Below the pieces are notes generated by a model, which was not told where the DNA came from, did no database searches, and saw only the letters and a program-made list of their open reading frames with translations. The position numbers were made by a program, and so were the translations under genes. This document shows, one piece after another, positions 17,410-57,000 of a stretch of DNA of 64,000 nucleotides. The stretch comes from Liolophura sinensis. Lineage: Eukaryota > Mollusca > Polyplacophora > Chitonida > Chitonidae. The stretch is from assembly GCF_032854445.1 (NCBI RefSeq), contig NC_088300.1:1552001-1616000 (forward strand), read 5' to 3'. Positions within the stretch are counted from its first letter, which is position 1; every line of letters starts with the position of its first letter.

Positions 17410-20400
17410 CTGAAAATAAACACGCAAAATTTTGCATCTTGAAAAAAAGGTAAGTAAATGAAAGATTGTTATTACAAAATGTAGTGGATGATGAATACAT
17501 TTCATGTCTGTTTATCGCCCTAATACAGAATTTTTCACTTATGCGATCATGGTTAGTTTTATATGGATGCCCGGCGATGGAAACCATCGACAGAAGAGCA
17601 AGTTACAGACCAACTTTTCCACATACAGATGTGGCGTACAGATACACAAATTGGTATTCGGCGAATAAACAAACAGCGACACGAAGGTTGCCGACCACTT
17701 ATTGTCACCGGGGCTCATGAACAAAACAGTAAGAGCGGGTGAATGCACAAATTCCTTGTCCACCGCCGAGTTTGAACTCGCAAGCACAGTAGATTTGTTG
17801 TGGTATAAAGTAGAAAAGTTTCAATGGATGGATTGTCATGGACTATACTCCGAGATTGCTCTCACGTCAGGTTTGCAAAATTTGTGTGCAGCCAAGGACG
17901 ACCTCAAACCAACCATAGAGCACCGCGAACCATTTAACCATTTGATGTAGTTGACGTGGCAGTTTGACACGTCGTTTAAGACAAAGTTACGACGGCCTCT
18001 GCGACCTAAATTTATGAAGACAATTATGTTTTCATATTTTCGTCAGTTGATTTATCGCAAGTACAACGTCGATGACTTATTTCCAAGGCCTCTTGTTCTC
18101 GAAATTGCTTGGTGATTCCACCCGCTGTACTGACAGCCTCGACATTTTTGACAAAGGCAAGTAGGTAACTGTAGGCCTGTCGGATTTTCAAATTGAGCGC
18201 CCTCTGACGTTCGTTTGGGCTAGATCAGAGATCTGTTTCATCCTTTACAGCCTAGTTTTCAGAAATACAGAAATTCCATTCACTAGCCTGGAACTCGGTC
18301 CTTTCGCTCATGCTGCCTTCAACATGTCTAAGCTATACGCTACAAAAACATGTTTTGTGTAATCCTTCAGTTATTCTTACTACACCTAGTTATTCGTGAA
18401 TAATAAAGTCCATAACGTTACAATTAAGACAAATGTGCCTTGCGCATCAACAGCAAGCCAAACTTCGTTAACCCCCGTTTTCAATTTGAGTCCGCCGGAC
18501 GCGGCATTGTACGGAAATATATACACAGATATAGAAATATTGTCGAATGATTTGATTGAACAAGTGACATATGCATCATCGAATGGATAACTGACAAATT
18601 GTTCAGGCGTCTTAACTTTAATTTGCGTGTTAATAATGAACAGAAAGGAACTGTAATCAACTATTGTGCACAAAGGAGATTTCTGAGAAGAGCAGCCGTC
18701 CACCACGGCAACGGAGTCACATGGTTTAAAACTGGCGGTTGGCGAAGTTCTGATGCTGTCCGAGTGAGTGCATCTGTTACATATGTGCTATGTGCGATGT
18801 TATGGTCCTTATTATCCCCACATAAGGGAGATGATACGAGTTCAGAATTACTTGGCCAAACCTAACGTCAGGGTAATCTAAGACTACACGGATACAACAG
18901 AGACATCAAGTCTGCACTTCAAGTAAAAGGTATAATCTTGAGATAAAAGTGTTTCCAAACAGTGGCCACCTGGGCGTTCTGTTGTATCCTCGTCGGGTTT
19001 GTACTCTTGGGGATCACCACCATACCACGCTGGATTAAGTTCCTCAATAAGATCTGCAGTAAAGAGACGAAGAAAGGCTTCACACGTTATTCACACAATC
19101 ACCATTGGCAAAGATTTATACACGCACACCTGTTTGTTTTACACTAGACGATGTGGTACATACACATCACCAAGGTTTCAGATGAACCTATATATGAAAT
19201 AAACTGCTACAGATCTTTATTGTCTCCCTTTATATGATTCAAAGTCAAGTGGGATGGGCACCAGTTAATGGCCATAAACTACAGATAAGCCATACTTTAT
19301 CATTTGAAAATCCTCGTAAGATCCAATATAACCATCATTATCAATGTCAGCATTGTAGTGTGAATCATAACTTACTTGTGCTGGAGTTTTCTTGTATTTT
19401 TTGGCCAGGTCTGCGATGACAGGGTGCTCCAGCAAAGGAGTGCCTTCATCTGGTTTTCGGCTAGAATAAAACACAACATTCCATCTGTCAGAAATATCTT
19501 GCATTTTAAAAGATCTGTGACGAACATTGCATTTGGACTTCATAAACACTGAACCCAGTATAATGAAAACATTTTTGTATCTGTACTTTACTAGCACCGT
19601 CAGATATGAGAATGCCTCATTACTTTTGTTCACTTCCTTTCTATTGGGAATATATGAACGGCTACACCCTTTGGCCCGATGTGCTTTGGGTCAAGGACAT
19701 AGTTAGCCGTAAGGTCATAAATGAACTGTAAACACAGGGTTGCCCTTACATTGCCTTGGGTCGTCCGGGCGAAGCAAATGGCGCATAGGCCGTCAAAAGC
19801 ATGTCCTTCTCCTTCAGGAAGGACGACAACTCTTCCTGCGGAAAGTAAGCGTGGCACTCCACCTGCGCAAGGCAAAACATCGGTTGTATATATGTAAGTC
19901 TTAACAAATATGTTATATGTTATAGAAATAGCTGCCATTTAAACGACCGATCTGACGATAATGAAAACATAAAGTACGAGATTGGCGTAAGGAAGAAACT
20001 CTTTCCATCTCTTCTTTTTCACTGGATCTTTTATTTCAGCACGATTGTCACTGGCTAACCTCTTTTCTGATTGACTCTCCTGATTTGTCATTTGTTTGCC
20101 TGAGTTTTCATTTACTCACCTTTTTTTCTCATTGGCTCACCTGTTTTCTGAATGGCTCACCTGGTTTGTAACAGGCTTAATACGGCAGTTCTTCAGAATC
20201 CTGGTTATTTGCTCAGAGTTGAAGTTGGACACCCCGATCGACCTGACGAGCCCCTCGTCAACCAGCTTCTCCATAGCCTGTTTTATGAGACAATGATTGC
20301 CATGCTTGTATTCGCATTTTAACCCGATATAAGGGCGTAAGTACTGAGTACATGGTGATGATCTAGTTTATACAGACGAATGGTTCAGTATGCCGCCTTT

Positions 20401-23400
20401 CCTGAACAGAAGTTCTCCTTCACTTAATGTCTTGTTTCATAGAACCATGCGTAGCAATAGATGTTGTTAATTGGGTAACAAGACTACACAAGACGTTTCT
20501 CCAAAGTGATGCATTAAAGCGAACTGAAAAGTGATATAAAGAGAGAGAGAATCTTTTACAAAATAAATGAGTGAAACGGCTATTTTACCTTCCAGCAGGC
20601 GACGAGGTCATGCGCCTCAAACTGTACTTTTCCATCTGGCCCAATCGCCCATGGTTTGTCCAGGCCCATGTACTGTAACAATTCCAGGCAGATATACAAA
20701 AACATGGGAATAAATAGAATTACTTATTAAGTAACACTTTGCTACATTATAGGATCGGTTATATGTAGTTCTTCAGTTGCGGTTTTAGGTCAAGATGTAG
20801 TAGGAGATGTACAAACCGTACGCCATGTAACTGTGAAAAACGTACTGACCAGCAGCGTATAAGTAAACAATGCTTGCGCATGGCGTCAAACAACAATCAG
20901 ATCAAAGTGTGAAGGTTTTAAAAATAGCACTAGCTGATACACAGAGAGCGAGGTTAAAATTCAAAATGGCCAGCAAGAGAGCTGATAGTGGATCTTATAA
21001 CGCGTTTAAGACAGGCCTAAAAAATTGTTTTAAATCCTTTAATCAATCATATATGTATTTGCATTTCGCTTGAAATTCTACATGGCCGGTCGTCTCCTTG
21101 AAGCCGTGTACTGAGGGGTCGATGTAAAATGTTTACCAGTACAGCACTGATATTTCGTGTCAGTTGTGCCCGCAAAGTAGATAGTATGCCAGGTTAATGA
21201 CGAAAGCACTATTGAGGTGATATCAAAACATTTTAGCAACTCTCTTTCTATTCCACTTTTCATTGAACTTAATTCACTTCTCCGCGCCAGTGAACAACAT
21301 CTTGGCATACAAATAAGCCCTATTCGTCGTGTTACCTTCATTCCTAATGGTGTATGGATGAGGAAAAGATCAATAACATCGAGTTTCAGTTTCTTTAAGC
21401 TGTTCTGACAGGCAGGTTTGACAGTGTCAGCTCCCATAAAAGGCATGGCAAGCTAAGAAGGAAGCAGAACAAAAAAAAACTGTCACTGTAGCTCGAGCAA
21501 ATATCCCATTTAATGAGAAAGTTTTTCCATTGGCATTTCCACACATTCGTTTTTATTTGAGTTGTAAAAGACTTGTCTTACAGCGTTGGGAATATACTCA
21601 TTCCCAGTTTTACAACCAAAACAGAGTGTATGTGAAAAGGTACAGCTCAGGGAAACCATTCAGATCGTTTTCCGACACAAATTAATGCTCCTTTTTAGAA
21701 TTTTTGTGATCAGAGGCTTTACATCGGAGAATATGTCGAGCAATAAACGTAAGCGTAGGGCATGTCTGCCTTTCTCACCTTGGTAGTGATGAACAGCTCA
21801 TCACGTGGTGTCTTCGTGGCCTGTAGGAACTCCTGAATAGCATCCCCGATTTCAGCCTCGTTTCCATACGCCTGTGCAGTATCGATATGACGATATCCAC
21901 ATTCCAGGGCGACTTTGGTGGCTTGTTTCACTTCACCAGGTGAAGACTATGTGACAAGTAAAACAGAAGGTTAGCACTAGATGAACACACAGGACTAGTT
22001 GTTCTTAGTTTAGTTTATTTACCCATTCTCACACAGACAACAACGTCCACTTATAGAAATGATATCAAATTAAATAATAGCAAAGTGCTATAGTCCGCAT
22101 AGCGCATGCATCGCTCTTTACATTCGCTTTGTGTTACTGTCACCACAACTCTATATTGTACAGAGTTTTTGAACAACACCAAGGTCACTGGGGTTGCGCT
22201 GATCAAGCAAGCAGTGATGTCAGTTTTTGTACTTGTCTGTTGATACTTGATGCACACGCATTCTCTTTGCAAGCCCACCTGCCGTGCACGGCCTCCAAAG
22301 GTCAAACTTGTGTAGTGGTGGCAGTGATGTATGGAGAGGCACACTTGCTGAAGTACACGTAGTGACGTCAGAAAACATGTAGTGACGTCAGAAAACATAT
22401 AGAAACATGATGATAGCATAAATCAATAATAACCAAGTTCTCGCAAGGAGATACATGCATGTTTGGATGGCTCAGCTAACATCCAGCAAGGAGGGAAGTA
22501 TGTGGTCAGATTCAGCTAACTCAGCTAACATCCAGCAAGGAGGGATGTATGTGGTCGGATTCAGCTAACTCAGCTAACATCCAGCAAGGAGGGATGTATG
22601 TGGTCGGATTCAGCTAACTCAGCTAACATCCAGCAAGGAGGGAAGTATGTGGTCAGATTCAGCTAACTCAGCTAACATCCAGCAAGGAGGGAAGTATGTG
22701 GTCGGATTCAGCTAACTCAGCTAACATCCAGCAAGGAGGGAAGTATGTGGTCGGATTCAGCTAACTCAGCTAACATCCAGCAAGGAGGGAAGTATGTGGT
22801 CAGATTCAGCTAACTCAGCTAACATCCAGCAAGGAGGGAAGTATGTGGTCAGATTCAGCTAAATCAGCTAACATCCAGCAAGGAGGGAAGTATGTGGTCG
22901 GATTCAGCTAACAGCTAACATCCAGCAAGGAGGGAAGTATGTGGTCGGATTCAGCTAACTCAGCTAAAATCCAGCAGGGAGGGAAGTATGTGGTCGGATT
23001 CACTTTGCAAAGGATTTTATTGAACAAAAAAAAAATGTACATCTATGGTAAATTTTTATATATGGCTTATGTCCATGAACGTCTGTATTAAATCATTTGG
23101 AACACGACTGGTACTGCATGTAAAGGAAGAGTCGCTTTAGATTGGCATCGTGTGTGCTTCAAATCACAGACTTTGACACAGAGGATTCATATGTCACCTG
23201 CAACGGAATTCGTGTAACTTGCCCCTATGGTTTGTGTGTGGTTTGTCAGGAGACGGGACATAAGTTCTTAATGTGTTAATACGGTGGTGGTTGTCTAGGT
23301 AATACGTTGTGTCTGTGTTTATACACTGTAAACGTGGCTAGGCTGGTTTGTTGATCTTTATAACATATCCATACAAAACTCTACACAACAGACGCGGGTC

Positions 23401-25287
23401 ATAGCTGCATAGATATCAAGGCTCGACATCAGAGATTTATTCTTCTCCGCATAACGTGTCAAGATGTATTTTGCGTCTTATGAAGATACCACAAAAGAAT
23501 TCCAGCATTTCTGTTCACACCTGAGTAATGAGCAGAGATTGCACCAGCCATGCCGTCTATATTCCCAGCAACTAGGCTGCTATCGCCTAGTGTAGTCTGT
23601 ACCTTAACATAGGCTCTTAACCTGGTTTGCAACCAGATGATGAGTTTACTGTCATACGATGTTAAAGTAATTTGTTAACATAATATGCAATTTGTGCACA
23701 CAATAAAAAGATAATGTTTTGCTCTCTATCTCATTAATACATCAGACCTAACATTCAGGTCATGAGGACCAACAGGAATAACAACGGAGGAAGACATCTG
23801 CAGCAAAGTAATGTAAAGGGGTAGCTGTAGAACCACCCGCATTCTGACGTTACGCTTGAAGAAGTTTTTATAGTCGAGTCGTTATTTGAGCACTGTCCCG
23901 ATAGCTAAACAGAATGGTGAAAAAGTACAAAAGCATCTTTCAAATGAGAAAAGATGTTTTTAATAATATATGTGGATGTGCATAAAGTGTAACGCTTTTA
24001 GCTGGGTAGACCTATGTGACAATGAGCGAAAGGTATCCAGCAAATATGATGCCCACAGTTCAGTAGACCTCTTTGATAATGAGTGAAAGGCATCCAGCAA
24101 GTATGATGCCTTTAGCTCTGTATGTATACCAAGTATGATGCCTTCCGCTCTGTATGTAGGATGGATGTGTACTAAGTACAAATGTTGATGTATGATGCCT
24201 TAAGCTGTGTATGTAGTATGAACGTATACCAAGTGTGAGGCCTTCCCTTCTGTATGTAGGATGGATGTGTACTAAGTACAAATGTTGATGTATGATGCCT
24301 TAAGCTGTGTATGTAGGATGAACGTATACCAAGTGTGAGGCCTTCAGCTATGTGTGTATGATGAACGTGTACCAGCATGATGCCTTCAGCTATGTGTGTA
24401 GAATGAATGTGTACCAACTACAAATGTACATGTATGATGCCTTCCTCTCAGTATGTAGGATGAACGTGTACTAAGTATGATGCCTTCAGCTATGTGTGTA
24501 TGATGAACGTGTACCAGCATGATGCCTTCAGCTATGTGTGTAGGATGAATGTGTACCAAGTATGATGCCTTCAGCTATGTGTGCAGGATAAACGTGTATC
24601 AAGTGTGATGCCTTCAGCTATGTGTGCAGGATAAACGTGTATCAAGTGGGATAGGATAAACGTGCACCAGCATAATGCCTTCAGCTGTGTATTTAAAATG
24701 TACGTAATCTTATTTGATGGGGTTAAATCTGATATAATTGTGTTATCCTAATTCAGTTATTCATTCTGGCTTCCTCTCCGACCGTACGTTGGAAGTTATG
24801 CCATCCACCTGAGGATGTTACCTGGCATCGCCCTAGTCCCAAAACTTACCTTTCATGGCCCTAGTCCCATAACTTACCGGTCGTGGCCCTCGTGCCATAA
24901 CTTACCTACCACGGCCCTCGTCCCATAACTTACCTGGCATGGTCCTATTTCAATAATTTACCTGACATGGCCCTATTTCCAGAGCTTACCTGGCATGACA
25001 TTAGTCCAATAACTTATCTGGCATGACACTAGTCCAATAGCTTACCTGACATGGCCCTAGACCCAGAACTTAACCGGCATGGCCCTAGACGCATAACTTA
25101 CCTGGCATGGCCCTGGTCCTAGAGCTTACCATGGCCCTAGTCCCACGGCTGACCTAGCATGGCCCTAGTCCCAGAGCTTACCTGGCATGGCCCTGGTTCC
25201 ATAGCTTACCTGCCATGTCCCTAACCCCAGCAACGGGACAGTACGCTTGTTGTTCATCATCAACACATGTTTGCCAATTGAAGCCAT
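17321..25287 (-). CDS. Aldo-keto reductase (AKR superfamily), nine exons found
   Basis: NADPH-dependent carbonyl reductase of the cytosolic (alpha/beta)8 barrel family. Exons on the minus strand: 25,287-25,210; 21,946-21,779; 21,452-21,336; 20,672-20,589; 20,277-20,161; 19,862-19,750; 19,460-19,376; 19,053-18,970; 17,409-17,321. All junction phases agree (0,0,0,0,0,2,0,0), giving 311 residues. Visible are the strand-1 motif VPLLGLGTW, the catalytic tetrad Asp48 (in [14 protein letters not shown]), Tyr53, Lys82 (end of FITTK) and His115 (in DLFLIHTP), then [22 protein letters not shown] and the cofactor motif [15 protein letters not shown]. The ATG at 25,287 gives a normal AKR start. The last exon ends at SSYG just before a donor-like GTAAGT. 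A short terminal exon (about 10-20 residues in relatives) was not found; reading through gives an immediate TAA. The substrate cannot be told. Confidence 0.93.
17410..18969 (-). other. AKR intron 8
   Basis: About 1.56 kb without a recognised element. Open frames on both strands at 18,386-18,865 (up to 106 codons) have no recognisable domain. Confidence 0.7.
18970..19053 (-). CDS. AKR exon 8
   Basis: 28 codons with [20 protein letters not shown], the NADPH-binding segment. The donor, CAG then GTGGCC, is a weak match to consensus. Confidence 0.9.
19265..19375 (-). other. EF-hand-like reading frame directly after AKR exon 7
   Basis: If the exon 7 donor is not used, the AKR frame stays open for 36 codons to a TAA at 19,265-19,267. 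The added tail contains [12 protein letters not shown] (19,313-19,348), a perfect 12-residue EF-hand loop (Asp1, Asp3, Asp5, Gly6, Ile8, Glu12), followed by DFQMIKYGL. It could be an alternative terminal exon, a captured piece of an EF-hand gene, or coincidence. Confidence 0.45.
19376..19460 (-). CDS. AKR exon 7
   Basis: Completes the split Ile codon, then [20 protein letters not shown] and KYKKTPAQ before GTAAGT. The frame stays open past the donor into an EF-hand-like stretch. Confidence 0.93.
19750..19862 (-). CDS. AKR exon 6
   Basis: 37 codons plus two bases, with [20 protein letters not shown] and [14 protein letters not shown]; donor GTAAGG, phase 2. Confidence 0.95.
20040..20165. repeat. 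Degenerate 20 bp array of the AKR exon 5 donor
   Basis: On the gene strand, after the real donor (ACCAG then GTGAGCCATT), the intron carries ACAGGTGAGCCAATGAG, AAAGGTGAGTAAATGA, TCAGGCAAACAAATGA, TCAGGAGAGTCAATCAG and GAGGTTAGCCAGTGA at about 20 bp spacing. Two of these copies keep the GTGAG donor core. Confidence 0.7.
20161..20277 (-). CDS. AKR exon 5
   Basis: 39 codons with [20 protein letters not shown] and ending in VTNQ before GTGAGC. Degenerate copies of its donor follow in the intron. Confidence 0.95.
20589..20672 (-). CDS. AKR exon 4
   Basis: 28 codons with [14 protein letters not shown] and ending in VACWK before GTAAAA; the loop before the AMEKLV helix. Confidence 0.93.
21336..21452 (-). 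CDS. AKR exon 3
   Basis: 39 codons with [20 protein letters not shown], carrying the catalytic His. Donor GTAACA. Confidence 0.95.
21779..21946 (-). CDS. AKR exon 2
   Basis: 56 codons with [19 protein letters not shown] and ending in FITTK before GTGAGA. Supplies the catalytic Asp, Tyr and Lys. Confidence 0.95.
22455..23000. repeat. 49 bp array in AKR intron 1, about 11 units
   Basis: Units contain CAGCTAACATCCAGCAAGGA followed by GGGAAGTATGTGGTCGGATT. Copies are nearly identical, so the expansion is recent. No exon-like seed was recognised. A 20 bp doublet (GTAGTGACGTCAGAAAACAT) lies just before it at 22,360-22,400. Confidence 0.95.
23000..24080. other. AKR intron 1, unique part
   Basis: About 1.1 kb between two arrays with no recognisable coding or element sequence. 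Confidence 0.6.
24080..24690. repeat. Degenerate 40-47 bp array in AKR intron 1
   Basis: Repeats built on GATGCCTTCAGCTATGTGTG and GTAGGATGAACGTGTACCAA, with variable unit length. No exon or element seed recognised. Confidence 0.9.
24765..24830 (+). mobile_element. SINE family A fragment
   Basis: Contains CTGGCTTCCTCTCCGACCGT followed by ACGTTGGAAG and a diverged CCACCTGAGGATG stretch, matching the central part of the full-length copy at 50.55-50.79 kb. Confidence 0.5.
24838..25209. repeat. 28 bp array of the AKR exon 1 donor (about 13 units)
   Basis: On the gene strand each unit reads like GGGACTAGGGCCATGCCAG followed by GTAAGTTA. The real exon 1 ends GGGGTTAGGGACATGGCAG followed by GTAAGCTA. 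The monomer is therefore about 21 exon bases plus about 7 donor bases, and many units keep CAG-GTAAG intact. Confidence 0.9.
25210..25287 (-). CDS. AKR exon 1 (start codon)
   Basis: 26 codons from ATG, containing [15 protein letters not shown], ending in CATGGCAG before GTAAGC. Its 3' end and donor are the seed of the 28 bp array on its intron side. Confidence 0.93.
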
Positions 25288-25740
25288 GATAGTCACTGTA
25301 ACGTGCTGCGTGTTAGCCTGAATATTAACTCTCCGGCGGCGTGCAGATTTCCTGTGTGTGAGGCAAGTGGTGAGGTCGTAGATTTATACTATAGAGGTGA
25401 CGCCGAAAGAAAAAGACAGGCTTTATATATAGGTATGAAAGAAGGAGAGCTGTGAGTGATGTGACTTTATTTGAACATACATTCTGGCCTAGTCTCTGCG
25501 GCGCGTTGAAATTGTAGGTCAACCGGCCTACTTGTTTGCATTGATTTGCTGAGCGTATCGTACAATGTTAATGTCTGGAAAATGCGGCAGAGGTTGTACC
25601 TGAGCTAGTACTTACACTGTCTCATGTAGAAGTTTGCCCTACGGAATTTGCTGTGTCATCAGTGTATGTCAATAAAGGAATAAGAGGGGAATACCGATAG
25701 GTCTTCCTCTCGTAGACTGTACGACAAGATTCTAGATTGA
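25288..25740. other. Upstream flank of the AKR gene
   Basis: Should hold the 5' untranslated region and promoter of the AKR gene. No TATA-like or other element could be assigned. Confidence 0.4.
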
Positions 25741-26274
25741 AGTTTTTTTTATTTACCAACATCATTCATACATTTATAACATTATACCCTTAGGTAGAAC
25801 GACGGGAGTAAAATCTCAGAGGGCTTGCTCTATCCGTTTTAGAATCACATAATGAAAATAAATGGCAAAGGTGAACATAAGTACTTGACATCATAAGACT
25901 TCTGAAAACGTATTTAAATTAGTACATAAGGAATGGAAACATATCAGTTAATCAGATCCAATATGTGAGTCTGAAATCGTGCCTTAATTAAAGACAGAGA
26001 TTCAATGTTCCTAAAGACTAAGGGTTAACTATTCCCGATTTCAGGTTCTTTAACCTGCAATAAAAATCGAGGAAAGTCAGAGAAGTACAAAGATGTGTGT
26101 AGACTGAGCGTGGGCTGCCGGCCTTAATGGGTATGGACATACAGGGGCCTTATAAAAACAGTTTGAAATGCTAAGGGTAGTAAACAAGAATAATAAACAA
26201 ATTAAATACCAATATTTGAAAACCATTTAGTTGCTGCGCAAAATATTAAATCTCTTAAAAATAAGAGCAGTATG

Positions 26275-29200
26275 GTCAAATCGTTTCGATAAGGTAATGA
26301 TACACACAGACCTAGTATAGAGAGGTCAAGCCGTGTGGATAAGGTAATGATGCGCACAGACCGTGTATGGAAAGGTCAAATCGTTTGGATACGGTAATAA
26401 TACGCAAAGACCGAGTATAGAGAAGTCAAATCGTTTGGATCAGGTAATGATGCGCACAGACCGAGTATAGAGAAGTCAAATCGTTTGGATCAGGTAATGA
26501 TGCGCACAGACCGTGTACAGAACGGTCAACGACCGAGTATGAAGAAGTCAAATCGTTTGGATCAGGTAATGATGCGCACAGACCGTGTATAGAGAAGTCA
26601 AATCGTCTGGATGAGGTAATGATGCGCACAGACCGAGTATAGAGAGGTCAAAGACCAAGTATAGAGAGGTCAAAATTGGATACGGTAATGATGCGCACAG
26701 ACCGAGTATAAGGAAGTCAAATCGTTTCGATAAGGTAATGATGTGCACAGACCGTGTATAGAGAGGCCAAATCGTTAGGACAAGGTAATAATGCGCACAG
26801 ACCGAGTATAGAGCGGTCAAATCGTTTGGATAAGGTAATGAAGCGCATAGACCGAGTATACAGAGGCCAAATCGTTTGGACAAGGTAATGATGCGCACAG
26901 ACCGAGTATGGGGAAGTCAAATCGTTTGGATAAGGTAATTATACGCAAAGACCGAGTATAGAGAAGTCAAATCGTTTGGATAAGGTAATGATGCGCACAG
27001 ACCGTGTACAGAACGGTCAACGACCGAGTATAGAGAGGTCAAATCGTTTGGATAAGGCAATGATGCGCACAGACCGTGTATAGAGAAGTCAAATCGTCGG
27101 GATGAGGTAAAGATGCGCACAGACCGAGTATAGAGAGGTCAAAGACCAAGTATAGAGAGGTCAAATCAATTGAATACGGTAATGATGCGCACAGACCGAG
27201 TATAAGGAAGTCAAATCGTTTGGATAAGGTAATGATGTGCACAGACCGTGTATAGAGAGGATAAATCGTTAGGACAAGGTAATGATGCGCACAGACCGAA
27301 TATAAGGAAGTCAAATCGTTTCGATAAGGTAATGATGCCCACAGACCGAGTATGGGGAAGTCAAATCGTTTGGATAAGGTAATGATGCGTACAGACCGGG
27401 TATACAGAGGCCAAATCGTTTGGACAAGGTAATGATGGGCACAGACCGAGTATAGAGAAGTCAAATCGTTTGGATAAGGTACTGATGCGCACAGACCGTG
27501 TACAGAACGGTCAAGGACCGAGTATAGAGAAGTCAAATCGCTTGGATAAGGTAATGATGCGCACAGACCGTGTATAGAGAAGTCAAATCGTCTGCATGAG
27601 GTAATAATGCGCACAGATCGTGTATAGAGAGGTCAAATCGTTTGAATAAGTTTATGATGCGCACAGACCGAGTATAGAGAGGTCAAAGACCAAGTATAGA
27701 GAGGTCAAATCGATTGGATACGGTAATAATGCGCACAGACAGAGTATGGGGAAGTCAAATCGTTTGGATTAGGTAATGATGTGCACAGACCGTGTATAGA
27801 GAGGCCAAATCGTTAGAACAAGGTAATGATGCGCACAGACCGAGTATAGGGAGGCCAAATCGTTTGGACAAGGTAATGATGCCCACAGACCTTGTATAGA
27901 GAAGTCAAGTCGTTTGGATGAGGTAATGACGCGCACAGACCGAGAATATAGAGGTCAAAGACCAAGTATAGGGAAGTCAAATCGATTGGATACAGTAATG
28001 ATGCGCACAGACCAAAAATAGAGAGGTCAAATCGTGTGAATAAGGTAATGATGCGCACAGACCGAGTATAGAGAAGTCAAGTCGTTTGGATCAGGTAATG
28101 ATGCGAACAGACCGTGTACAGAACGGTCAACGACCGAGTATAGAGAAGTCAAATCGTTTGGATGAGGTAATAATGCGCACAGACCGTGTATAGAGAGGTC
28201 AAATCGTTTGAATAAGGTAATGATGCGCACAGACCGAGTATAGAGAGGTCAAAGACCAAGTATAGAGAGGTCAAATCGATTGGATACGGTAATGATGCTC
28301 ACAGACAGAGTATATGGAAGTCAAATCGTTTGGATAAAATAATGATGCGCACAGACCGAGTGTAGAGAGGCCAAATCGTTTGGATGAGGTAATGATGCGC
28401 ACAGACAGAGTATAGAGAGGCCAAATCGTTTGGACAAGGTAATGATGCGCACAGACCGAGTATAGAGAGGTCAAGTCATTTTGATGAGGTAATTTTGCGC
28501 ACAGACCGAGTACAGAGAGGTCAAATCGTTTGGATAAAGTAATGATGTGCACGGACCGAGAATAGAGAGGTCAAAGACCAAGTATGGAGAAGTCAAATCG
28601 ATTGGATACAGTAATGATGCGCAGAGACCGAGAATAGAGAGTTCAAATCGTTTGGATAAGGTATTGATGCGCACAGACCGAATACAGAGAGGTCAAATCG
28701 TTTGGATAAGGCAATGATGCGCACAGACCGTGTACAGAAAGGTCAACGACCGAGTATAGAGAAGTCAAATCGTTTGGATAAGGTAATGATGCGCACAGAC
28801 CATGTATAGAGAAGTCAAATCGTTTGGATAAGGTAATGATGCGCACAGACCGTGTATAGAGAAGTCAAATCGTCTGGATGAGGTAAAGATGCGCACAGAC
28901 CGAGTATAGAGAGGTCAAAGACCAAGTATAGAGAGGTCAAATCAATTGGATACGGTAATGATGCGCACAGACCGAGTATAAGAAAGTCAAATTGTTTGGA
29001 TAAGGTAATGATGTGCACAGACCGGGTATAGAGAGGCCAAATCGTTAGAACAAGGTAATGATGCGCACAGACCGAGTATAAGGAAGTCAAATCGTTTCGA
29101 TAAGGTAATGATGCGCACAGACCGAGTAGGGGGAAGTCAAATCGTTTGGATAAGGTAATGATGCGCACAGACCGGGTATAGAGAATCCAAATCGTTTGGA

Positions 29201-31905
29201 CAAGGTAATGATGCGCACAGACCGAGTATACAGAGGCCAAATTGTTTGGATAAGGTAATGATGCACACAGACCGAGTATAGAGAAGTCAAATCGTTTGGA
29301 TAAGGTAATGATGCGCACAGACCGTGTACAGAACGGTCAAGGACCGAGTATAGAGAAGTCAAATCGCTTGGATAAGGTAATGATGCGCACAGACCGTGTA
29401 TAGAGAAGTCAAATCGTCTGGATATGGTAATAATGCGCACAGATCGTGTATAGAGAGGTCAAATCGTTTGAATAAGGTAATGATGCGCACAGACCGAGTA
29501 TAGAGAGGTCAAAGACAAAGTATAGAGAGGTCAAATCGATTGGATACGGTAATAATGCGCACAGACCGAGTATGGGGAAGTCAAATCGTTTGGATTAGGT
29601 AATGATGTGCACAGACCGTGTATAGAGAGGCCAAATCGTTAGGACAAAGTAATGATGCGCACAGACCGAGTATAGGGAGGCCAAATCGTTTGGACAAGGT
29701 AATGATGCGCACAGACCCAGAATATAGAGGTCAAAGACCAAGTATATGGAAGTCAAATCGATTGGATACAGTAATGATGCGCACAGACCGAGTATAGAGA
29801 GTTCAAATCGTTTGGATAAGGTAATAATGCGCACAGACCAAAAATAGAGAGGTCAAATCGTGTGAATAAGGTAATGATGCGCACAGACCGAGTATAGAGA
29901 GTCTAATCGTTTGGATCAGGTAATGATGCGCACAGACCGTGTACAGAACGGTCAACGACCGAGTATAGAGAAGTCAAATCGTTTGGATGAGGTAATAATG
30001 CGCACAGACCGTGTATAGAGAGGACAAATCGTTTGAATAAGGTAATGATGCGCACAGACCGAGTATAGAGAGGTCAAAGACCAAGTATAGAGAGGTCAAA
30101 TCGATTGGATACGGTAATGATGCGCACAGACAGAGTATGGGGAAATCAAATCGTTTGGATAAAATAATGATGCGCACAGACCGAGTATAGAGAGGCCAAA
30201 TCGTTTGGACAAGGTAATGATGCCCACAGACCTTGTATAGAGAGGCCAAATCGTTTGGATAAGGTAATGATGGGCACAGACCGAGTATAGAGAGGCCAAA
30301 TCGTTGGACAAGGTAATGATGCGCACAGACCGAGTATAGAGAGGCCAAATCGTTTGGATAAGGTAATGAAGCGCACAGACAGAGTATAGAGAGGCCAAAT
30401 CGTTTGGACAAGGTAATGATGGGCACAGACCGAGTATAGAGAGGTCAAGGCATTTTGATGAGGTAATTTTGCGCACAGACCGAGTACAGAGAGGTCAAAT
30501 CGTTTGGATAAAGTAATGATGCGCACAGACCGAGAATAGAGAGGTCAAAGACCAAGTATGGAGAAGTTAAATCGATTGGATACAGTAATGATGTGCACAG
30601 ACCGAGTATAGAGAAGTCAAATCGTTTGGATAAGGTAATGACGCGCACAGACCGAGAATATAGAGGTCAAAGACCAAGTATAGGGAAGTCAAATCGATTG
30701 GATACAGTAATGATGTGCACAGACCGTGTATAGAGAAGTCAAATCGTTTTGATAAGGTAATGATGCGCACAGACCGAATACAGAGAGGTCAAATCGTTTG
30801 GATAAGGTAATGATGCGCACAGACCGTGTACAGAACGGTCAACGACCGAATATAGAGAAGTCAAATCGTTTGGATAAGGTAATGATGCGCACAGACCATG
30901 TATAGAGAAGTCAAATCGTTTGGATAAGGTAATGATGCGCACAGACGGTGTATAGAGAGGCCAAATCGTTTGGATAAGGTAATGATTCGCACAGACCAAG
31001 TATAGAGACGTCCTAGACCGAGTATAGAGAAGTCAAATCGTTTGGATAAGGTAATGATGAGCACAGACCGAGTATAGAGAGGTCAAATCGTTTGGATAAG
31101 GTAATGATGCGCCCAGACCGAGTATAGAGAGGTCAAATCGTTTTGGATAAGGTAATGATGTGCACAGACCGAGAATAGAGAGGTCAAAGACAAAGTATAG
31201 AGAGGTTAAATCGATTGGATACGGTAATGATGTGCACAGACCGAGTATGGGGAAGTCAGATCGTTTGGATAAAGTAATGATGCGCAGAGACCGAGAATAG
31301 AGAGTTCAAATCGTTTGGATAAGGTATTGATGCGCAAAGACCGAGTATAGAGAAGTCAAATCGTTTGGATAAGGTAATTATGCGCACTGACCGAGTATAG
31401 AGACTTCAAAGACCGAGTATAGAGAAGTCAAATCGTTTGGATCAGGTAATGATGCGCACAGACCATGTATAGAGAAGTCAAATCGTTTGGATACAGTAAT
31501 GATGCGCACAGACCGAGTATAGTGAGGCCAAATCCTTTGGATAAGGTAATAATACGCACAGACCGAGTATAGAGAGGTCAAATCGTTTGGATAAGGTAAT
31601 GATGAGCACAGACCGAGTATAGAGAAGTCAGATCGTTTGGATAAGGTAATGATGCGGACACCACCAAGAATAGAGAGGTTAAATCGTTTGGATCAGGTAA
31701 TGATGTGCACAGACCGAGTATAGAGAAGTCAAATCGTTTGGATCAGGTAATGATGCGCACAGACCGTGTTTAAAGAAGTCAAATCGTTTGGATGAGGTAG
31801 TGAAGCGCACAGACGGTGTATAGAGAAGTCAAATCGTTTGGATAAGGTGATGATACGCACAGACCGAGTATAGAGAGGTCAGATCGTTTGGATAAGGTAA
31901 TGATG
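26275..31905. repeat. 50 bp satellite inside LINE-2 (about 112 units, 5.6 kb)
   Basis: Units contain CAAATCGTTTGGATAAGGTA followed by ATGATGCGCACAGACCG and AGTATAGAGAGGT. The first part is the reverse complement of the LINE-2 codons for RIITLSKRFD. Shorter or compound units (GAGGTCAAAGACCAAGTATA) and kilobase-scale higher-order blocks are visible: 26.9-27.2, 27.5-27.7, 28.8-29.0 and 29.4-29.6 kb resemble one another. Minus-strand open frames up to 191 codons are by-products of the stop-poor monomer. Confidence 0.96.
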
Positions 31906-32008
31906 CCCGCAAACCTTTTTTGTAGGACTATATGTTTTGTGTGTGTAAGCCTAATCCACAAACCTTTTTTGTAGGACTATATGTTTTGTGTGTGTAAGCC
32001 TAATCTAG
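31905..32008. repeat. 49 bp tandem duplication of LINE-2 codons
   Basis: CAAACCTTTTTTGTAGGACT and the following bases to TAAGCCTAATC occur twice at 49 bp spacing. On the minus strand they encode LTHTKHIVLQKRF of LINE-2, next to the 50 bp satellite boundary. Confidence 0.9.
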
Positions 32009-32234
32009 ACTGCTATAAGATAAGCATAGGTATACAGGAGAATAGTATACTATAAATAAAGCCCTAATATGTAATACATTTTTAAGATGATTTAAAACAC
32101 CTAGGTTTCTGTCTATTTTAATATACATTTACATTAATGTGTGTTTTCCAATTAAAAAAACTCATTAATATAAATTCCAACAAATTAGAATGAGGTCACT
32201 CTTTCAATATCAACAGAATTTACATATAATTTTA

Positions 32235-33050: not shown

Positions 33051-33265
33051 CACGGTATGTGATTATTTATTTCATTGTTTCATTATTTTACGCATTTTTG
33101 ACACGTATAATTGCGGTCAGTTCTATGGATGGCGGAAACTAGAGTGGCTGAGGAGAAACGCCGACCTTCAGTAAATTACGAATCAATTTACCCACACGTC
33201 ATCCACAAATATGTAAACCATGTGAACACTGGTAAAAGACAAGTGGTCTTCAGCGAGCTTTAGAC

Positions 33266-34008
33266 AACACAAATACCTACAGTTTGTACCTTACCGTCAC
33301 TAACACCACACAAATACCTACAGTATGTAGCTTACTGTCACCATGACCACACAAATACCTACAGTTTGTAGCTTACTGTCACCAAGACTCCACAAATACC
33401 TACAATTTGTAGCTTACCGTCACTAAGACCATACAAATACCTACAGTTTGTAGCTTACTGTCACCATGACCATACAAATACCTACAGTATGTAGCTTACT
33501 GTCACCATGACCACACAAATACCTACAGTTTGTAGCTTACTGTCACCAAGACTCCACAAATACCTACAATTTGTAGCTTACCGTCACTAAGACCATACAA
33601 ATACCTACAGTTTGTAGCTTACTGTCACCATGACCATACAAATACCTACAGTTTGTAGCTTACTGTCACCATGACCATACAAATACCTACAGTTTGTAGC
33701 TTACTGTCACCATGACCATACAAATACCTACAGTTTGTAGCTTACTGTCACCATGACCATACAAATACCTACAGTTTGTAGCTTACTGTCACCATGATCA
33801 CACAAATACCTACAGTTTGTAGCTTACTGTCACCATGACCATACAAATACCTACAGTTTGTAGCTTACTGTCACCATGATCACACAAATACCTACAGTTT
33901 GTAGCTTACTGTCACCAACTCAACAAATACCTACAGTTTGTAGCTTACTGTCACCATGACCACACAAATACATACAGTTTGTAGCTTACCGTCACCAAGA
34001 CTCCACAG
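33266..34008. repeat. 41 bp array, about 18 units
   Basis: Units contain ACAAATACCTACAGTTTGTA followed by GCTTACTGTCACCATGACC. On the minus strand each unit holds GGTGACAGTAAGC, a good 5' splice-site match. At the right edge the unique sequence reads GGAGTCTTGGTGACGGTAAGC, which could be the end of an exon. Confidence 0.93.
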
Positions 34009-34009
34009 T

Positions 34010-38940: not shown

Positions 38941-38941
38941 A

Positions 38942-39088
38942 TCATTCCTTGCACATGGGCGGGTTGACATATCCGAAGACGTTACATTCAATCATGACAG
39001 AGAATACCAGGTAGACGCCATAGACGATCATACACACAATTCCAACACATCTGTTCAGGATCCAGCCCGAGCAGTGGATGGCTGCAAG
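38942..39088 (-). CDS. NCKX exon 16 (C-terminus and stop)
   Basis: [20 protein letters not shown] to [18 protein letters not shown] and TGA; last transmembrane helix and family C-terminus. Confidence 0.96.
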   Translation of the reverse strand, partial: LAAIHCSGWILNRCVGIVCMIVYGVYLVFSVMIECNVFGYVNPPMCKE

Positions 39089-42000
39089 CTGAAAACACAA
39101 AAGAATAACAACATAAATATATTTTCCTGTTTGCTTTTTATTAGTGTTCTGTTGAATACGTATTCCATCTCTATTTGAATTACACACGTCATGCCAACCG
39201 TTGGCAGGGAAACGCCACATCCTAGAAAAAACTGCCCTAAGTTAGCTAACTTTTTAGACATTTAGTCTTTACAATTATTTTTGCACTTCTTGATGATTAA
39301 TTATACGGCAAATTAAGTAATACACATAACGTTATGTACCGTATCGCCATTTATGGTCCTGTATTCTAATAGGGGGAGGGGGCATTTCACGCCTTACATA
39401 ATCCGAGACTATTCAGTATTGTGCATTGGTCATCCCTGCCTTAGCCATGACGTTTTGTGACATAACCCGAGATTATTCTGTGTGGTGTATTGGTCATCAT
39501 TGCCTTACCGATGACAATTTGTGACATAACCCGAGACTATTCTGTGTGGTGTATTGGTCATCCCTGCCATAGCCATGACGTTTTGTGACATAACCCGAGA
39601 TTATTCTGTGTAGTGTATTGGTCATCATTGCCTTAGCGATGACGATTTGTGACATAACCCGGGACTATTCTGAGTGGTTCACTGGTCATCCCTGCCTTAG
39701 CGATGACGATTTGTGACATAACCCGGGACTATTCTGAGTGGTTCACTGGTCATCCCTGCCTTAGCGATGACGTTTTGTGACATAACCCGGGACTATCCTG
39801 TGTGGTTCACTGGTCATCCCTGCCTTAGCGATGACGTTTTGTGACATAACCCGAGGTTATTCTGTGTGGTTCACTGGTCATCCCTGCCTTAGCGATGACG
39901 ATTTGTGACATAACCCGGGACTATTCTGAGTGGTTCACTGGTCATCCCTGCCTTAGCGATGACGTTTTGTGACATAACCCGGGACTATTCTGTGTGGTTC
40001 ACTGGTCATCCCTGCCTTAGCGATGACGTTTTGTGACATAACCCGAGATTATTGTGTGGTTCACTGGTCATCCCTGCCTTAGCGATGACGTTTTGTGACA
40101 TAACCCGAGATTATTCTGTGTGGTTCACTGGTCATCCCTGCCTTAGCGATGACGTTTTGTGACATAATCTGAGATTATTCTGTGTAGTGTATTGGTCATC
40201 ATTGCCTTAGCAAAGATGTTTTGGGGGCAAACCAGCAATGTATGACTTATCCATGCTAGGAGAATAATGGTCATCTCAGCCTGGAAGCCTTAGCGCATAA
40301 AAAGATACACCCTTAGCCAACCACGTGTTTACTTTGAACACCATATCTCTTTTATCACCATGTTTCATGACGTTTCCTGTCCGCTATACACCCCTGCGTC
40401 TCCCCCGGGTAGAGATCGATTCGTTCTGTGTGACTCCACCTTGATGAACGGTTATATTACGTATATGTACCAGCCTGTATGGTCATATGCGCGGTATGGA
40501 CGTCTTTGCTAAGTGTTTGCAGGCGAGCGCCTCCCTGGTGTTGCTTGATATATTGCTTAACATTAACACGCCAAAAGAAAGAAATACTGCACACACTTAG
40601 TCTTAGAAATAGTGGAAACCGTATCCATCACAAAGGAATTGAGTAAACCACATGTAGTCGCTGGTGTCAAGCCACAAGTGGTCACTGGTGTCAGCCACAT
40701 GTGGTCGCTGGCGTCAAGCCACATGTGGTCGCTGGTGTCAAGCCACATGTGGTCACTGGTGTCAGCCACATGTGGTCGCTCGTGTCAGCCACATGTGGTC
40801 GCTGGTGTCAGCCACATGTGGTCGCTGGTGTCAAGCCACATGTGGCCACTGGTGTCAGCCACATGTGGTCGCTGGTGTCAAGCCACATGTGGTCGTTGGT
40901 GTCAAGCCACATGTGGTCACTGGTGTCAGCCACATATGGTCGCTGGTGTCAAGCCACATGTGGTCACTGGTGTCAAGCCACATTTGGTCGCTGGTGTCAG
41001 CCACATGTGGTTGCTGGTGTCAGCCACCAGACAGTGTATATGCCCCTGGCTTCTCCTGACAAAATGACTTGATATGTACCGTGAGGCTTACCTTGATATT
41101 GACAGTGAGGAAGAGTTGGATGACTGAGCAGATCTCTACCGTGAGACTTCTATAAAATGAGACATACCGTGATATTGACAGTGAGGAAGAGTAGGATGAC
41201 GGAGGAGATCTATACCGTGAGACTTACCGTGCCATTGACAGTGAGGAAGAGAGGGATGACGTAGCAGATCTATATCGTGAGACTTTTATACCGTGAGACT
41301 TACCGGGATATTGACAGTGAGGAAGGGTAGAATGACAAAGCAGATCTATATTGTCAGACTTCCATACCGTGAGACTTACCGTGTTATTGACAGTGAGGAA
41401 GAGTAGGATGACGGAGGAGATCTATACCTAGAGACTTACCGGGATATTAACAGTGAGGAAGATTAGGATAACGTAGCAGATCTATACCGTGAGACTTCTA
41501 TACCATGAGACTTACCGTGATATTGACAGTGAGAAAGAGTAGGATAGTAGGATGCCAGAGCAGATCTATACCGCGAGACTTCTATACCTTGAGATTTACA
41601 GCGAGACACCGTGATATTGACAGTGGGAAAGAGTAGGATGGGAAAGTGGGAAAGGAGAGCGGATCTATACCGCGAGACTTCTACACCGTGAGACGTACCG
41701 TGATATTGAAAGTGAGGAAGAGTAGGATGACGGAGCAGATCTATACCGTGAGACTTACCGTGATATTGACAGAGAGAAAGAGTAATATGACGGAGCAGAT
41801 CTATTCCGTGAGACTTACCGTGATATTGACAGTGAGGAGGCGTAGGGAGACTGAGCAGATCTATACCGTGAGATTTACCGTGATATTGACAGTGAGGAAG
41901 AGTTGGATGACGGAGAAGATCGATACTGCGAGACTGCTATACCGTGATGCTTACCGTAATGAAAAGTTGGATAACTGAACAGATCTAAGATCTATACCGT

Positions 42001-45000
42001 GATACTTCTATACCGTGAGACTTGCCGTAACAATGGCATTGGGAAATAGTATGATAATAAAGTAGAATTATACTGTGAGACTTACCGTGACCATGTTGTT
42101 GGGGAAGAGTATGATGATTGAGTACAACTATACCGTTACCTTGATATTCATAGTGAGGAAGAGTAGGATGATGGCGTATATCTATACCGTGAGACTTCTA
42201 TACCGTGATAATAATGATGAGGACAAGAAGGAAGACGGAGAAAATCTATACTGTTAGACTCACCGTGATAATAACGGTGAGGAAGAGTAGGATGATGTAG
42301 ATCCATACCGTGAAACCTATGTTAATATTGACAGTGAGGAAGAGTTGGATGAAGTAGTAGATATATAGCGTGAGACTTGTCGTGATATTGACATTGAGAA
42401 AGAGTAGGATATTGGAGTAGATCCATGCCGTTAGACTTATGTTAATATTGATAGTGAAGAGGTAGATCTATACTTTGATTTATTTGTTTATTTGATTCAT
42501 GTTTTACTCCATACTCTAGAATATGTCACGTATATTATGGTGGGTGGAAACCGGGCAGAGCCTGGGGAAACCCACGACCATCCGCAGGTTGCTGGCAGAC
42601 CTTCCCACGTACGGCCGGAGATCTATACTTTGAGACTTCTATACCGTGAGGCTTACCGTGATAATGAGGGTGAGGATGATAAGGAAGACGGAGTAAATCT
42701 ATACTGTGAGATTTACCTTGACCATGATGGTGAGGAAGAGTAGCACGACGGCGTAAATCTATACTGTGAGACTTACCGTGATAATGAAGGTCAGGAAGAG
42801 TAGGATGACGGAGTAAATCTACACTGTGAGACTTTTATACTGTGATAATGACGGTGAGGAAGAGTGGGATGATGGAGTAGATTTATACTGTGAGACTTAT
42901 GTTGATATTGGTAGTGAGGAAGAGTAGGATGACGGAGTAAATCTGTACCGTGAGACTTACCGTGATGATGACGGTGAGAAAGAGTCGGGTGATGGAGTAG
43001 ATTTATACTGTGAGACTTATGTTGATATTGGTGGTGAGGAAGAGTAGGATGACGGAGTAAATCTGTACCGTGAGACTTACCGTGATGATGACGGTGAGAA
43101 AGAGTCGGGTGATGGAGTAGATTTATACTGTGAAACTTATGTTGATATTGGTGGTGAGGAAGAGTAGGATGACGGAGTAAATCTGTACCGTGAGACTTAC
43201 CGTGATAATGAAGGGGAGGAAGAGTAGGATGACGGAGTAAATCTACACTGTGAGACTTTTATACTGTGATAATGACGGTGAGGAAGAGTGGGGTGATGGA
43301 GTAGATTTATACTGTGAGACTTACCGTGATGATGACGGTGAGAAACAGTAGGATGATGGAGTAGAACATACCGTTGCTGTTGATTTGCACCTGTGAATGT
43401 CGGAAAAGTATACTCATTCAGTAAAACACATGTATACATTCCTATCAGCTCAATTCTGACAAGAAAGAGCTACAATAGTTGCAACTAGCTTAAAGGGTCC
43501 TGAAATCAATGGGAAGCATATTGTCAAAACACATGGCGAAGCCCCAAACGCCTAATGTTTAATCGCTTGATGCCCTTAAACTGGAATATCAAAATATCTC
43601 ATAAGCCTTTGCCTATTTGTGCCGTGTTATTCTCGCAAATGAGACAATTTCAGATTCCGAAAAGCTTTTCACAATTATCTACCTTTTTTCAAACTATCAA
43701 TGTACTTATGGGTCAGATAAAGATAGATTCTGCTGTTAAAGCCAATGGCCCACACGGATATCGTTTTTGAAACATCCATATGTATATCCATATGTCCTGC
43801 TTACTGGCAGGAAAGTAAAATATATATGAAATCGATACATAAAGGTTTCTTAAGTAACTTAAGGTAGATAGGTGACCGACCAGGGTAAAATGTCCATTTT
43901 AGTGAACAACGCTAACTTGCGCAACACTTGGGCAATGCACAAATTAAACATCTGTTCTTTTCTTTTCATTGATGACATAAGTTACTGACATAAATGTCTC
44001 TCAAACTGTTGTACATAACATAAGAAAATGAACTTCGTATTTAAGGGAATTGTACATACTTGTCCTGTTGTATTTTATGCTGTTTCTGAAAGTGCGTGCA
44101 TATGGTCAGGCTACTTAATTAATAAATGTGTACTTAATGGTGCACATGGTGATCATGATTTGCACACAGTTGAACTTTGAGTATACGGCATATTTATCAT
44201 AAAACAGTTTTAAGTCATCAATTTATTTAAAAAGTCCTTTGATTTTTTTATCTACTTAGTCCAAGAATTACCCGAGACCATGCAATCTGAGAAATGTGTC
44301 AGGGCGAACGTGAGGATGATGGCGACATGTTAACTGTCAGCCTGATGTGTCTTCTGCTTACTGTTATCCCTTGACAATTGTATAATGATACAAATATATG
44401 CAAATCTAATCTAACATGATAAACTAATAGAGTCGTAATAGCCAAATAACTAAGTTAAATAGTTATTGCTACGAAAATAGGGAAGTCGCAAAAACTCACC
44501 ATATCGTTTGAATACCAAATAGGAAATGTAATATTTAAACGTTTTAAACAACATCATACTGGTCATGGAATAGACTTATTTATTAATAACTGAGCTACTT
44601 CACGGTCAAAGACGTTCATTTCAAACCCAGTAGAGTAAAATCGTCTGTGAAAGAATAGCTACAGACAGGTGCTTTTTTTATCGTTGACTATTTTTACATC
44701 ACAAGGTATCGTTTTTCATGAACAGAATATTTTTTTCATGTATGAAAACAAATGTAGTAAAACACAACCATTACTGGAAATTACTGGAGATTACGCGTTG
44801 CCTTCTAGTCATTGAATTTATGAATAATAGATTACCGTTGTGCCAGCGTTGAAGATTCCTGTTTTCAGAAACCATGGTAATGAAAGTCCAAGGAGAATGT
44901 CAAAAACGTTACTGCCAATTGAGTTGGACACAGCCATATCGCCCATACCTGCAACCAGGTCAAATATCACCAACATTCAACATAACTGCAATTCAACATT

Positions 45001-54000: not shown

Positions 54001-57000
54001 TGTTAACACTGTTAATACTGATTCGACAGACAATGACACTGCGTTCGGCATACTTCCGTGAGGGAATTCTCCATCAAACCTTTCTCATCTTCTATAGGCG
54101 TCTGTTTCGGCCCTTATCTATACGACTATATATTTTGGAACAAATACCTCTTGGTTCAGAGTTTCCTGCCTTGAGGAAACATCAGAAAATAGAAATAAAC
54201 AGTGCTGTAAGCAGTGTTTTGATGTGCTTTTTCGACACTAATAAACAGCGGGAAATCCCATACACCGCAAAGCTGTCATTACAATTAAGCCTAGTTTACG
54301 ACGACATGTTGTTTTGAGCTCCTGTCAACGTCAGTGACTCCCAATCGGCCTTTGTAAATTATTGAGTATATTTCAGTTTAGAGGATGAACACGAATGATG
54401 CATTTTCCGTGACTGGATAACACCGAAATCATTGACTGCTTGTTCCCACAATCTCCATCACATAATTAACAGCAAAATGCAGGTATTCTAAGGTGACCAT
54501 TTGGCTACTAGGAAATGCGGCAGATCAAACAAACGAAATTATATTGATCTAGAGTAATAAATAACAATAATAAATTCGTTAAAAAATTTTACCATACTTA
54601 CCGCATTATGACAATGTAGAACATATACAACAACAACATTGCCAAGGACTCGTACCACGTGACCACGCTGTCATAAACTACCTACAAAGTGGAGAAAGCG
54701 AGACGGCATTAATATCTTGATAAAGGTGACATAATTCTTTTTATGCAAACCATAACTTTTTATAGCAGTCTAATAAAACAAACTGCAACATACAATTCTT
54801 CCACACATGTGATGCTCCGGGGACAGTAATTAGCGAATAATAGCGGAACTGGACTTAAACTTCTACATTAGCCGTATGTGAACAATGTAAAGGGGACATG
54901 ATACCTTCAAACGTACAATGTCCCAGTCAGCAAAGTAATGTATGAGCAATGTCAAGCTGACATGTTGTTTTCAAACGCACAATGTCCCAGTGACCAGAGT
55001 AACGCGTGAACAATTTCAAGCGGACATGGTATATCCTAACGTAGAATGTCCAAGTGAGCTGAGTTACGTGTGAACAATGTCAAGCGGACAGGGTATATCC
55101 TAACAAACATTGTACAAATGACTGAGTAACGTGTGAACAATGTCAACCTAACAGGGTATATCCTAACTTAGAATGTCCCAGTGACCAGAGTAATGTGTAA
55201 ACAATGTCAAGCTGACAGGGTATATGTTAGCGTAGAATGTCCCAGTGACCAGAGTAATGTGTAAACAATGTCAAGCAAACAGTGATGTGGTTACTTACCA
55301 GGATCAAGGTTATAATGGTTGCTTACTAGGATCAAGGTTATAATGGTTACTTACCAGGATCAAGGTTATAATGGTTACTTACCAGGATCTAGGTTATAAT
55401 GGTTACTTACAAGGATCAAGGTTATAATGGTTACATACCAGGATCAAAGCTATAATGGTTACATACCAGGATCAAGGCTATAATGGTTACATACCAGGAT
55501 CAAGGTTATAATTGTTACTTACCAGGATCAAGGTTATAATGGTTGCTTACTAGGATCAAGGTTATAATTGTTACTTACCAGGATCAAGGCTATAATGGTT
55601 ACATACCAGGATCAAGGTTATAATTGTTACTTACCAGTATCAAGGTTATAATGGTTACTTACCAGGATCAAAGTTATAATGGTTACTTACTAGGATCAAG
55701 GTAATGACGGACAGGGAATAAAAGATGGAGTCTCGACACAATGGAAACCACGAGAGAGGAATTGCCTGCAAATTGCAAACGGGTAATCAATGAAAATTCT
55801 CATTTGATATTACAGCCAAAATGTAGAATAAAATGGATTCCAAAACGGCAGCCTTTGTGTAAAACTTAAGAGTATAAAACAATTTTAAAAAATAAAATTT
55901 TATAACTTTTTTAATTAACACCTAAATGTCTGGTGACATATCATAAAAGCATCCTGTAATTTAAGAAACTAGTGCTACGAAGCTAGATTAAGGGACTTAC
56001 ATCACGCCTTCCGGTTATATAGCTTCTATACTTTTTACGAGTTTCCTCGTAATGTTGGTTTTCCTCCCTGGACCGCGTAACTATGCTTAGGAAAATGTAC
56101 AAAGCCATTACTCAAGATAAGACAGCTTGTTTTCTCCTCGATTTTTCCGGCGAGATAATCTTTTCCCCAATGATTTATTCTGCGTCACACCTTTGTACAA
56201 GTATGCACAACGGCCTATAGTGTATTTCTTTTACAGAGTCGCCTATGTTCAGCTCTCTGTAAAATCATTCTCGCTACCAAACTTGCTTTTAACAACATAA
56301 GCTCTACGCATGGATATGTTAGATGTTCATACTCTTGCAAGGGAAATCAAATTACAACACTTTTTGTAATTTGTAACGTTAAACTGTATGAGCTCAGTTT
56401 CGACGCCAAGAACGCATTGTCTCGATTGACGTCGTAATTATTAAAAAAAACAGTGGCACCCTGGGGAATGGGCGTGGAGAGTAATTTGTTTAACAATAGG
56501 TGCACCATCAAGCGGTTAGAACAAACTCCACGTAATAACATAGCCTACACTACACTCTCAGTGAATGGACTACATTGTGTTTTATAACAAAATGTCCTGA
56601 CATCCAGCTTTAAAACCACACTGTCATGAGATCGTATACTGCAAGAGATAAAATAAAATTCGTTTATTAAGGTTATATGATAATAAACCTGTTAAATAAT
56701 TTCAAATATGACAGTGTTAGAAACAGGGTTTACGGTAAAACAGATAGCAGTCTAGGTAACTCCGTCAAATTTCCAGCATGCCACTGGTTTTTGAATAATT
56801 ATAACGTCACCCGAGACAATGGGTTCTTGCCGCCGAAACCGAGCTTATGGGCTTTAACATTATGAATTAGAAAACTTGTGTTTTAACTTCATTTTCCTTG
56901 CAATGGTATGGGCGTTTAATAATTAATGCGTAGAGTTTATGTTGTTACGTGTCACTGACTAAAGGCAACTTTGGTAGTGAGTACGATGATTTTACAGAGA

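Follow-up and report, generated by a model that had tools for sequence, protein, structure and literature searches.

Minisatellite-like tandem arrays at exon-intron boundaries of a chiton genome are found more often at splice donors than at acceptors

When a tandem array begins with the last bases of an exon and its splice donor, is the donor the place where such arrays are born, or the place where they are best tolerated? The question is raised by a stretch of 64,000 nucleotides of the chiton Liolophura sinensis (C6:1552001-1616000, on contig NC_088300.1 of a genome of 609 Mb in 632 contigs; the whole stretch is called the window below), in which two minus-strand genes could be modelled, an aldo-keto reductase (AKR), of which 9 exons are visible, and a K-dependent Na/Ca exchanger (NCKX), of which 16 are. 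At four places in these genes the 3' end of an exon, together with its 5' splice site, constitutes the first copy of an array on the minus strand. An earlier reading of this DNA from its letters only (the sequence-only reading) had described these arrays and proposed that donors are preferred seeds of minisatellites, or that arrays of donor copies are tolerated or useful. The arrays are present as described and recur elsewhere in the genome; the most probable explanation, however, is that they are boundary-spanning minisatellites of the kind named mirages in amphioxus, born indiscriminately, and that their bias towards donors comes from survival and not from seeding.

The exons and arrays concerned are as follows, in positions of the window and with a slash at the junction:

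25210..25287 (-), coding part of AKR exon 1 by translation (PLLGLGTWQ/), ending GTWQ/GTAAGC; source of the monomer
25209 (-), first intron base of the AKR exon 1 donor
24818..25223 (-), 28-bp array of 14.6 copies, the first copy being 14 bases of AKR exon 1 plus the donor
20161..20277 (-), AKR exon 5 by translation, ending KPVTNQ/GTGAGC; first intron base 20160
20048..20177 (-), 20-bp array of about 5.9 copies (two rows of Tandem Repeats Finder, TRF), adjoining AKR exon 5
55691..55765 (-), NCKX exon 4, ending SVITLIL/GTAAGT; first intron base 55690
55288..55702 (-), 28-bp array of 14.8 copies at NCKX exon 4, the first copy with 12 exon bases
43325..43390 (-), NCKX exon 15 (VQINSNG...; ending LLFLTVIIT/); first intron base 43324
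42638..43363 (-), 60-bp array of 12.0 copies adjoining NCKX exon 15, the first copy with 39 exon bases
41077..42457 (-), further stretch of the 60/76-bp array of NCKX exon 15, beyond a break

In the AKR exon 5 array the first copy comprises 7 exon bases and the donor, and the array at NCKX exon 15 covers 41077-43363 overall, with an interruption at about 42458-42637. The exon parts of these arrays encode conserved family residues, which marks the exon as the original and the array as derived from it. A chance resemblance of exon and monomer was considered and rejected.

How far this arrangement departs from chance was judged in the window on gene models with 24 donors and 24 acceptors (21 of the 24 donors were placed by exact string, the remaining three later). 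Arrays span four of the donors and none of the acceptors. In 4,000 circular shifts of the arrays, a generous null since arrays may then cover whole exons, and one in which two donor positions were off by 1-2 bases with no array nearby, a mean of 9.0 of the 24 donors fell inside an array (P(>=4)=0.98), as did a mean of 9.0 of the 24 acceptors, against none observed (P=0.002). Arrays in the window are therefore scarcer than the shifts predict at acceptors and, to a lesser extent, at donors, where no excess is seen. Arrays fill 38% of the window and 11% of the loci sampled elsewhere, and the window is also richer than that sample in donor arrays (P=0.043 for at least 4/24 at a rate of 11/196).

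The independent sample was taken from matches in the genome to six families, AKR, Na_Ca_ex, TCP-1, Aldedh, SNF and myosin, for which 310 rows were listed (35, 21, 50, 14, 109 and 81, respectively) and 210 used (32, 13, 46, 14, 50 and 55). Rows from the window itself, long matches within a single exon, most SNF rows that started at model position 1 or lay in very long or stop-rich frames, and myosin rows of lower score were all set aside before sequence was viewed. All sampled exons lie outside the window and were taken with 550 bases of flank per side, junctions being set by score and reading frame, and an array was called at a TRF score of at least 50 and a period of at least 8. A 3-bit junction score was passed by 197 of 210 donors and 206 of 210 acceptors, and two donors (L056 and L044) were shifted by reading to the exon-proximal site. 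An array spans the junction at 11 of 196 donors and at 3 of 206 acceptors (Fisher two-sided p=0.029), in a sample where neighbours within a gene are partly dependent observations. The donor count is 12 of 197 less one false donor, L059, where the frame stops right behind the supposed junction. The array at L059 (C11:29422443) begins at the last codons and the stop of an aldehyde dehydrogenase gene; a 3' coding end may therefore also seed an array.

Donor-side arrays thus recur in unrelated genes and exceed those at acceptors, in agreement with the sequence-only reading; its further statement that they are never found at an acceptor is correct for the window, but not for the genome sample. In the TCP-1 (CCT) family, where the good cases have exon ends ...GGGATEMALAQ and ...SLAVSKAADK, the donor arrays include one of 7.0 copies at an exon end reading ...LVPGGGATEMALAQ and one of 5.1 copies at ...SLAVSKAADK, and a myosin exon ending in ...LPFQTFLD, also a good case, is followed by 5.5 copies. 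Two donor arrays (L074 and L081) have two copies only, and donor-array monomers range from 20 to 238 bp. An AKR paralog (L116, C6:70275687-70275821) carries a 61-bp array at a junction (KPSNNQ/) that corresponds to that of AKR exon 5 (KPVTNQ/); its monomer is unlike that of the exon 5 array, and the two arrays are independent. The acceptor arrays are L025, L038 and L078, the last of which (C2:5378501) consists of 17.4 copies of 32 bp, its end taking in the initial 9 bases of an exon that encodes a myosin P-loop.

Of particular relevance to seeding is the behavior of arrays as a junction is approached. On the donor side, 28 of 197 sampled junctions are covered at +200 and 13 of 197 at +4; on the acceptor side coverage drops further, from 16 of 206 at 200 bases to 3 of 206 at 4 bases (p=0.0036). 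Array starts, counted for periods up to 100 in 60-bp bins, number 6 in the last exon bin before the donor and 12 from 0 to +60, followed by 4, 6, 6, 3 and 6; at acceptors the exon bin has 3 and the mirrored 0-60 bin 9, followed by 7, 4, 8, 7 and 8. The 6 starts in the last 60 exon bases (5 without the false donor) match the intron-bin mean of 5.0, and the exon-end bin is therefore at background for donors and at about half background for acceptors.

A search by words gave a similar picture. Among the matches listed, the perfect-donor word CAGGTAAGT was clustered (at least three together) in 5 of 48 independent places, vs. 8 of 129 for two control words (p=0.34). The triple tandem of this word has 238 matches in the genome and its reversed form 85, figures that are overlapping matches from a few large arrays and not counts of arrays, and which we use only weakly; single words number 9,837, vs. 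4,862 for the reversed word. Given the falling coverage, the background level of starts at exon ends and the word clusters, the proposal of preferred seeds is not supported. In the first part of C1 (0-3.8 Mb), 56 of 100 CAGGTAAGT words among the matches listed fall in five same-strand clusters (400-base linkage).

Arrays can also be traced back to exons from the other direction. Sixteen were chosen solely by repetition of CAGGTAAGT, out of 17 among the matches listed (C3:23271050 was left out, its end not being among those matches). TRF reports an array in all 16, and 13 have an open frame of at least 25 amino acids that reaches the start of the array after 60 bases or more. Homology scans of this set (10 vs. 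Pfam, 6 vs. PDB and 5 vs. NCBIfam) show that 3 of the 16 start at an exon of firm homology (two by Pfam, one by PDB), namely glycosyl hydrolase 31 (GH31, 1.1e-13), SMAD MH2 (3e-11) and RNA polymerase III RPC1 (1.3e-9). One further array has a weak NCBIfam match to deoC (18.2 bits vs. a cut-off of 117.3), and at four of the 16 (L161, L166, L167 and L168) no exon was evident by eye.

GT is kept in 67 of 82 later copies in 15 donor arrays, including 14 of 14 at NCKX exon 4, and many of these are full consensus donors; two donor strings at NCKX exon 15 bridge a gap in the alignment (the actual sequence is ACAGTATAA), and their GT is genuine. Divergence is found in 70 of 718 donor columns and 294 of 4,381 other columns, for a Mantel-Haenszel odds ratio of 1.2 (p=0.24; 13 arrays with counts, stratified by array), so the later donors are neither clearly conserved nor clearly eroded. 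The suggestion that donor arrays are useful is not borne out by these columns, which diverge like the rest. With regard to reading frame, the exon-proximal donor preserves it at all four window junctions, given a suitable acceptor, and the frame is shifted or stopped with all of the later GTRAG donors tried, 9 at AKR exon 1, 2 at AKR exon 5 and 5 in block 42638-43363 at NCKX exon 15. These frames suggest that the exon-proximal donor would be the one used in RNA, except at NCKX exon 4, where they are ambiguous. There, the next exon (NCKX exon 5) could begin behind either of two acceptors, 54681 and 54677, which lie 4 bases from each other, and the first donor of NCKX exon 4 matches the upstream one (54681).

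These observations are best accommodated, and probably explained, by indiscriminate birth followed by unequal survival. In a minisatellite-rich genome such as that of this chiton, tandem duplication would begin at almost any sequence. If a duplication by chance includes the end of an exon, the copy nearest the exon would still hold the coding sequence together with a functional donor; every later copy would be intronic, and the array could lengthen and diverge without much penalty. Where the segment takes in an acceptor, extra AGs and pyrimidine tracts would come to lie before the true acceptor, and such an array would be purged more often. The donor bias would thus reflect survival instead of seeding, with selection as the inferred cause of the difference.

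Several points weigh against this explanation. The bin from +0 to +60 holds 12 starts vs. 5.0 (Poisson p=0.005, for a bin picked post hoc), and the two donor-adjacent bins together hold 18 of 43 (p=0.063), while the mirrored bin at acceptors has 9 starts vs. a mean of 6.8; the excess is suggestive of some extra births near donors. A test paired by exon has p=0.057 on the sample alone (11 vs. 3); with the window that raised the idea included, the counts become 15 vs. 3 and p=0.0075. Later donors are not eroded, though selection against strong decoy donors might be expected. Finally, copy 2 at NCKX exon 4 (+28) joined to the downstream acceptor at 54677 is in frame, free of stops and 8 codons longer, and the two forms are alike in Pfam (50.0 vs. 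50.2 bits). On account of this +28 donor we rejected, as a general rule, the idea that no donor but the first can function. It is conceivable, though on balance unlikely, that the spliceosome follows a strong exon-proximal-first rule, or that copy 2 is used in places, as the +28 donor would permit, the donor arrays thereby continually supplying alternative exon ends, or that array births are somewhat concentrated close to donors (within 60 bases).

Preferred birth at donors, with R-loops or nascent RNA bound by U1 as possible mechanisms, could claim the same 12 starts at +0 to +60 of the 197 donors and the surplus of tandem and single CAGGTAAGT words, but exon-end starts at background, coverage that drops towards the donor, word clusters no more frequent than those of control words among the matches listed, and shifts that yield more donor overlaps than were observed together make it unlikely. 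The view that dense arrays coincide with exon ends by chance alone, donors and acceptors being equal, gains from the density of arrays in the window and the sampled loci and from the modest size of the sample difference, whether taken by Fisher test or by pairing; we nevertheless regard it as quite improbable, as the depletion at acceptors agrees in window and sample. That donor-copy arrays are kept for a function, as extra U1 sites that block premature polyadenylation or aid exon definition, might be thought from the many GTs and full consensus donors in later copies, and seems very improbable given that the donor columns are no more conserved than the rest and that 185 of 196 donors have no such array. 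An origin of the arrays as dispersed repeats of introner-like or transposon type, from which the exon ends were drawn, has next to nothing to recommend it: a 182-base query from the NCKX exon 15 array, the one array of the four so tested, had 14 matches in the genome, all 14 within its own array (window 41100-43363), and the exon parts encode conserved family residues. This origin was rejected, the NCKX exon 15 monomer having no matches outside its own array.

Other arrays in the window include a candidate fifth donor-side case, reported by TRF:

33263..34001 (-), 41-bp array, monomer with ACG/GTAAGC

Upstream of it lie an open frame and an acceptor-like TTTACTCCAATAG, which may constitute a putative exon. 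Between AKR and NCKX there is a 5.6-kb array of 50/22-bp units (26274-31906). At 7073-7342, five tandem 53-bp copies read LSLIIMCGDIERNAGP-like, a motif which we take to be of the 2A ribosome-skipping type; the frame shifts between copies because 53 is not a multiple of 3.

About one sampled donor in eighteen (11/196) precedes an array of near-identical donors, more than 12 of them in some arrays. If some 5.6% of donors carry arrays, the genome would amount to an extensive natural collection of introns with many donors that varies in monomer length, copy number and donor strength, and in which an old question, the choice of the correct 5' splice site among equals, could be read from RNA. Should the less likely reading apply in which copy 2 is used in places, the donor arrays would supply alternative exon ends. 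Mirages would no longer be peculiar to lancelets but a feature shared by a mollusc, and the presumed survival advantage of donor copies over acceptor copies now has a number.

What appears to be new here is the mollusc case and the quantified asymmetry between donors and acceptors; the phenomenon itself is already known in amphioxus. Searches of the open-access literature yielded neither a mollusc case of boundary minisatellites nor a donor-vs.-acceptor count, and the words "minisatellite" and "tandem repeat" do not occur in a chiton comparison paper (PMC12005716). As the amphioxus papers describe them, mirages are minisatellite-like tandem duplications of exon-intron boundaries, both 5' and 3', in the genes for Adh3, the globins BflGb6 and BflGb9, PGBD5 and, as cited there, TnC, with monomers specific to the locus, splicing reported as undisturbed and a proposed role as a path to new introns (PMC3087553, PMC3902484); the monomers measure 10-72 bp in Adh3 and 150-160 bp in the globins (PMC3087553). 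The chiton arrays resemble mirages so described in that they span the boundary, keep the splice signals and occur at 5' and 3' boundaries, and in having a locus-specific monomer, in the one array of four tested. They differ in the chiton host, in that many genes were sampled and the donor excess measured, and in monomers of 20 to 238 bp. Length that varies between alleles or cells is a further mark of mirages; the chiton arrays were read from one haplotype. With the Rogers model of intron gain through tandem genomic duplication of AGGT segments (see PMC4974935 and PMC3443670), they share a tandem duplication that bears a splice signal; in contrast to that model, the chiton copies remain within an existing intron. 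Like ordinary intronic minisatellites they are local, tandem and variable in copies, and they are set apart from these by a first copy that is coding exon plus donor.

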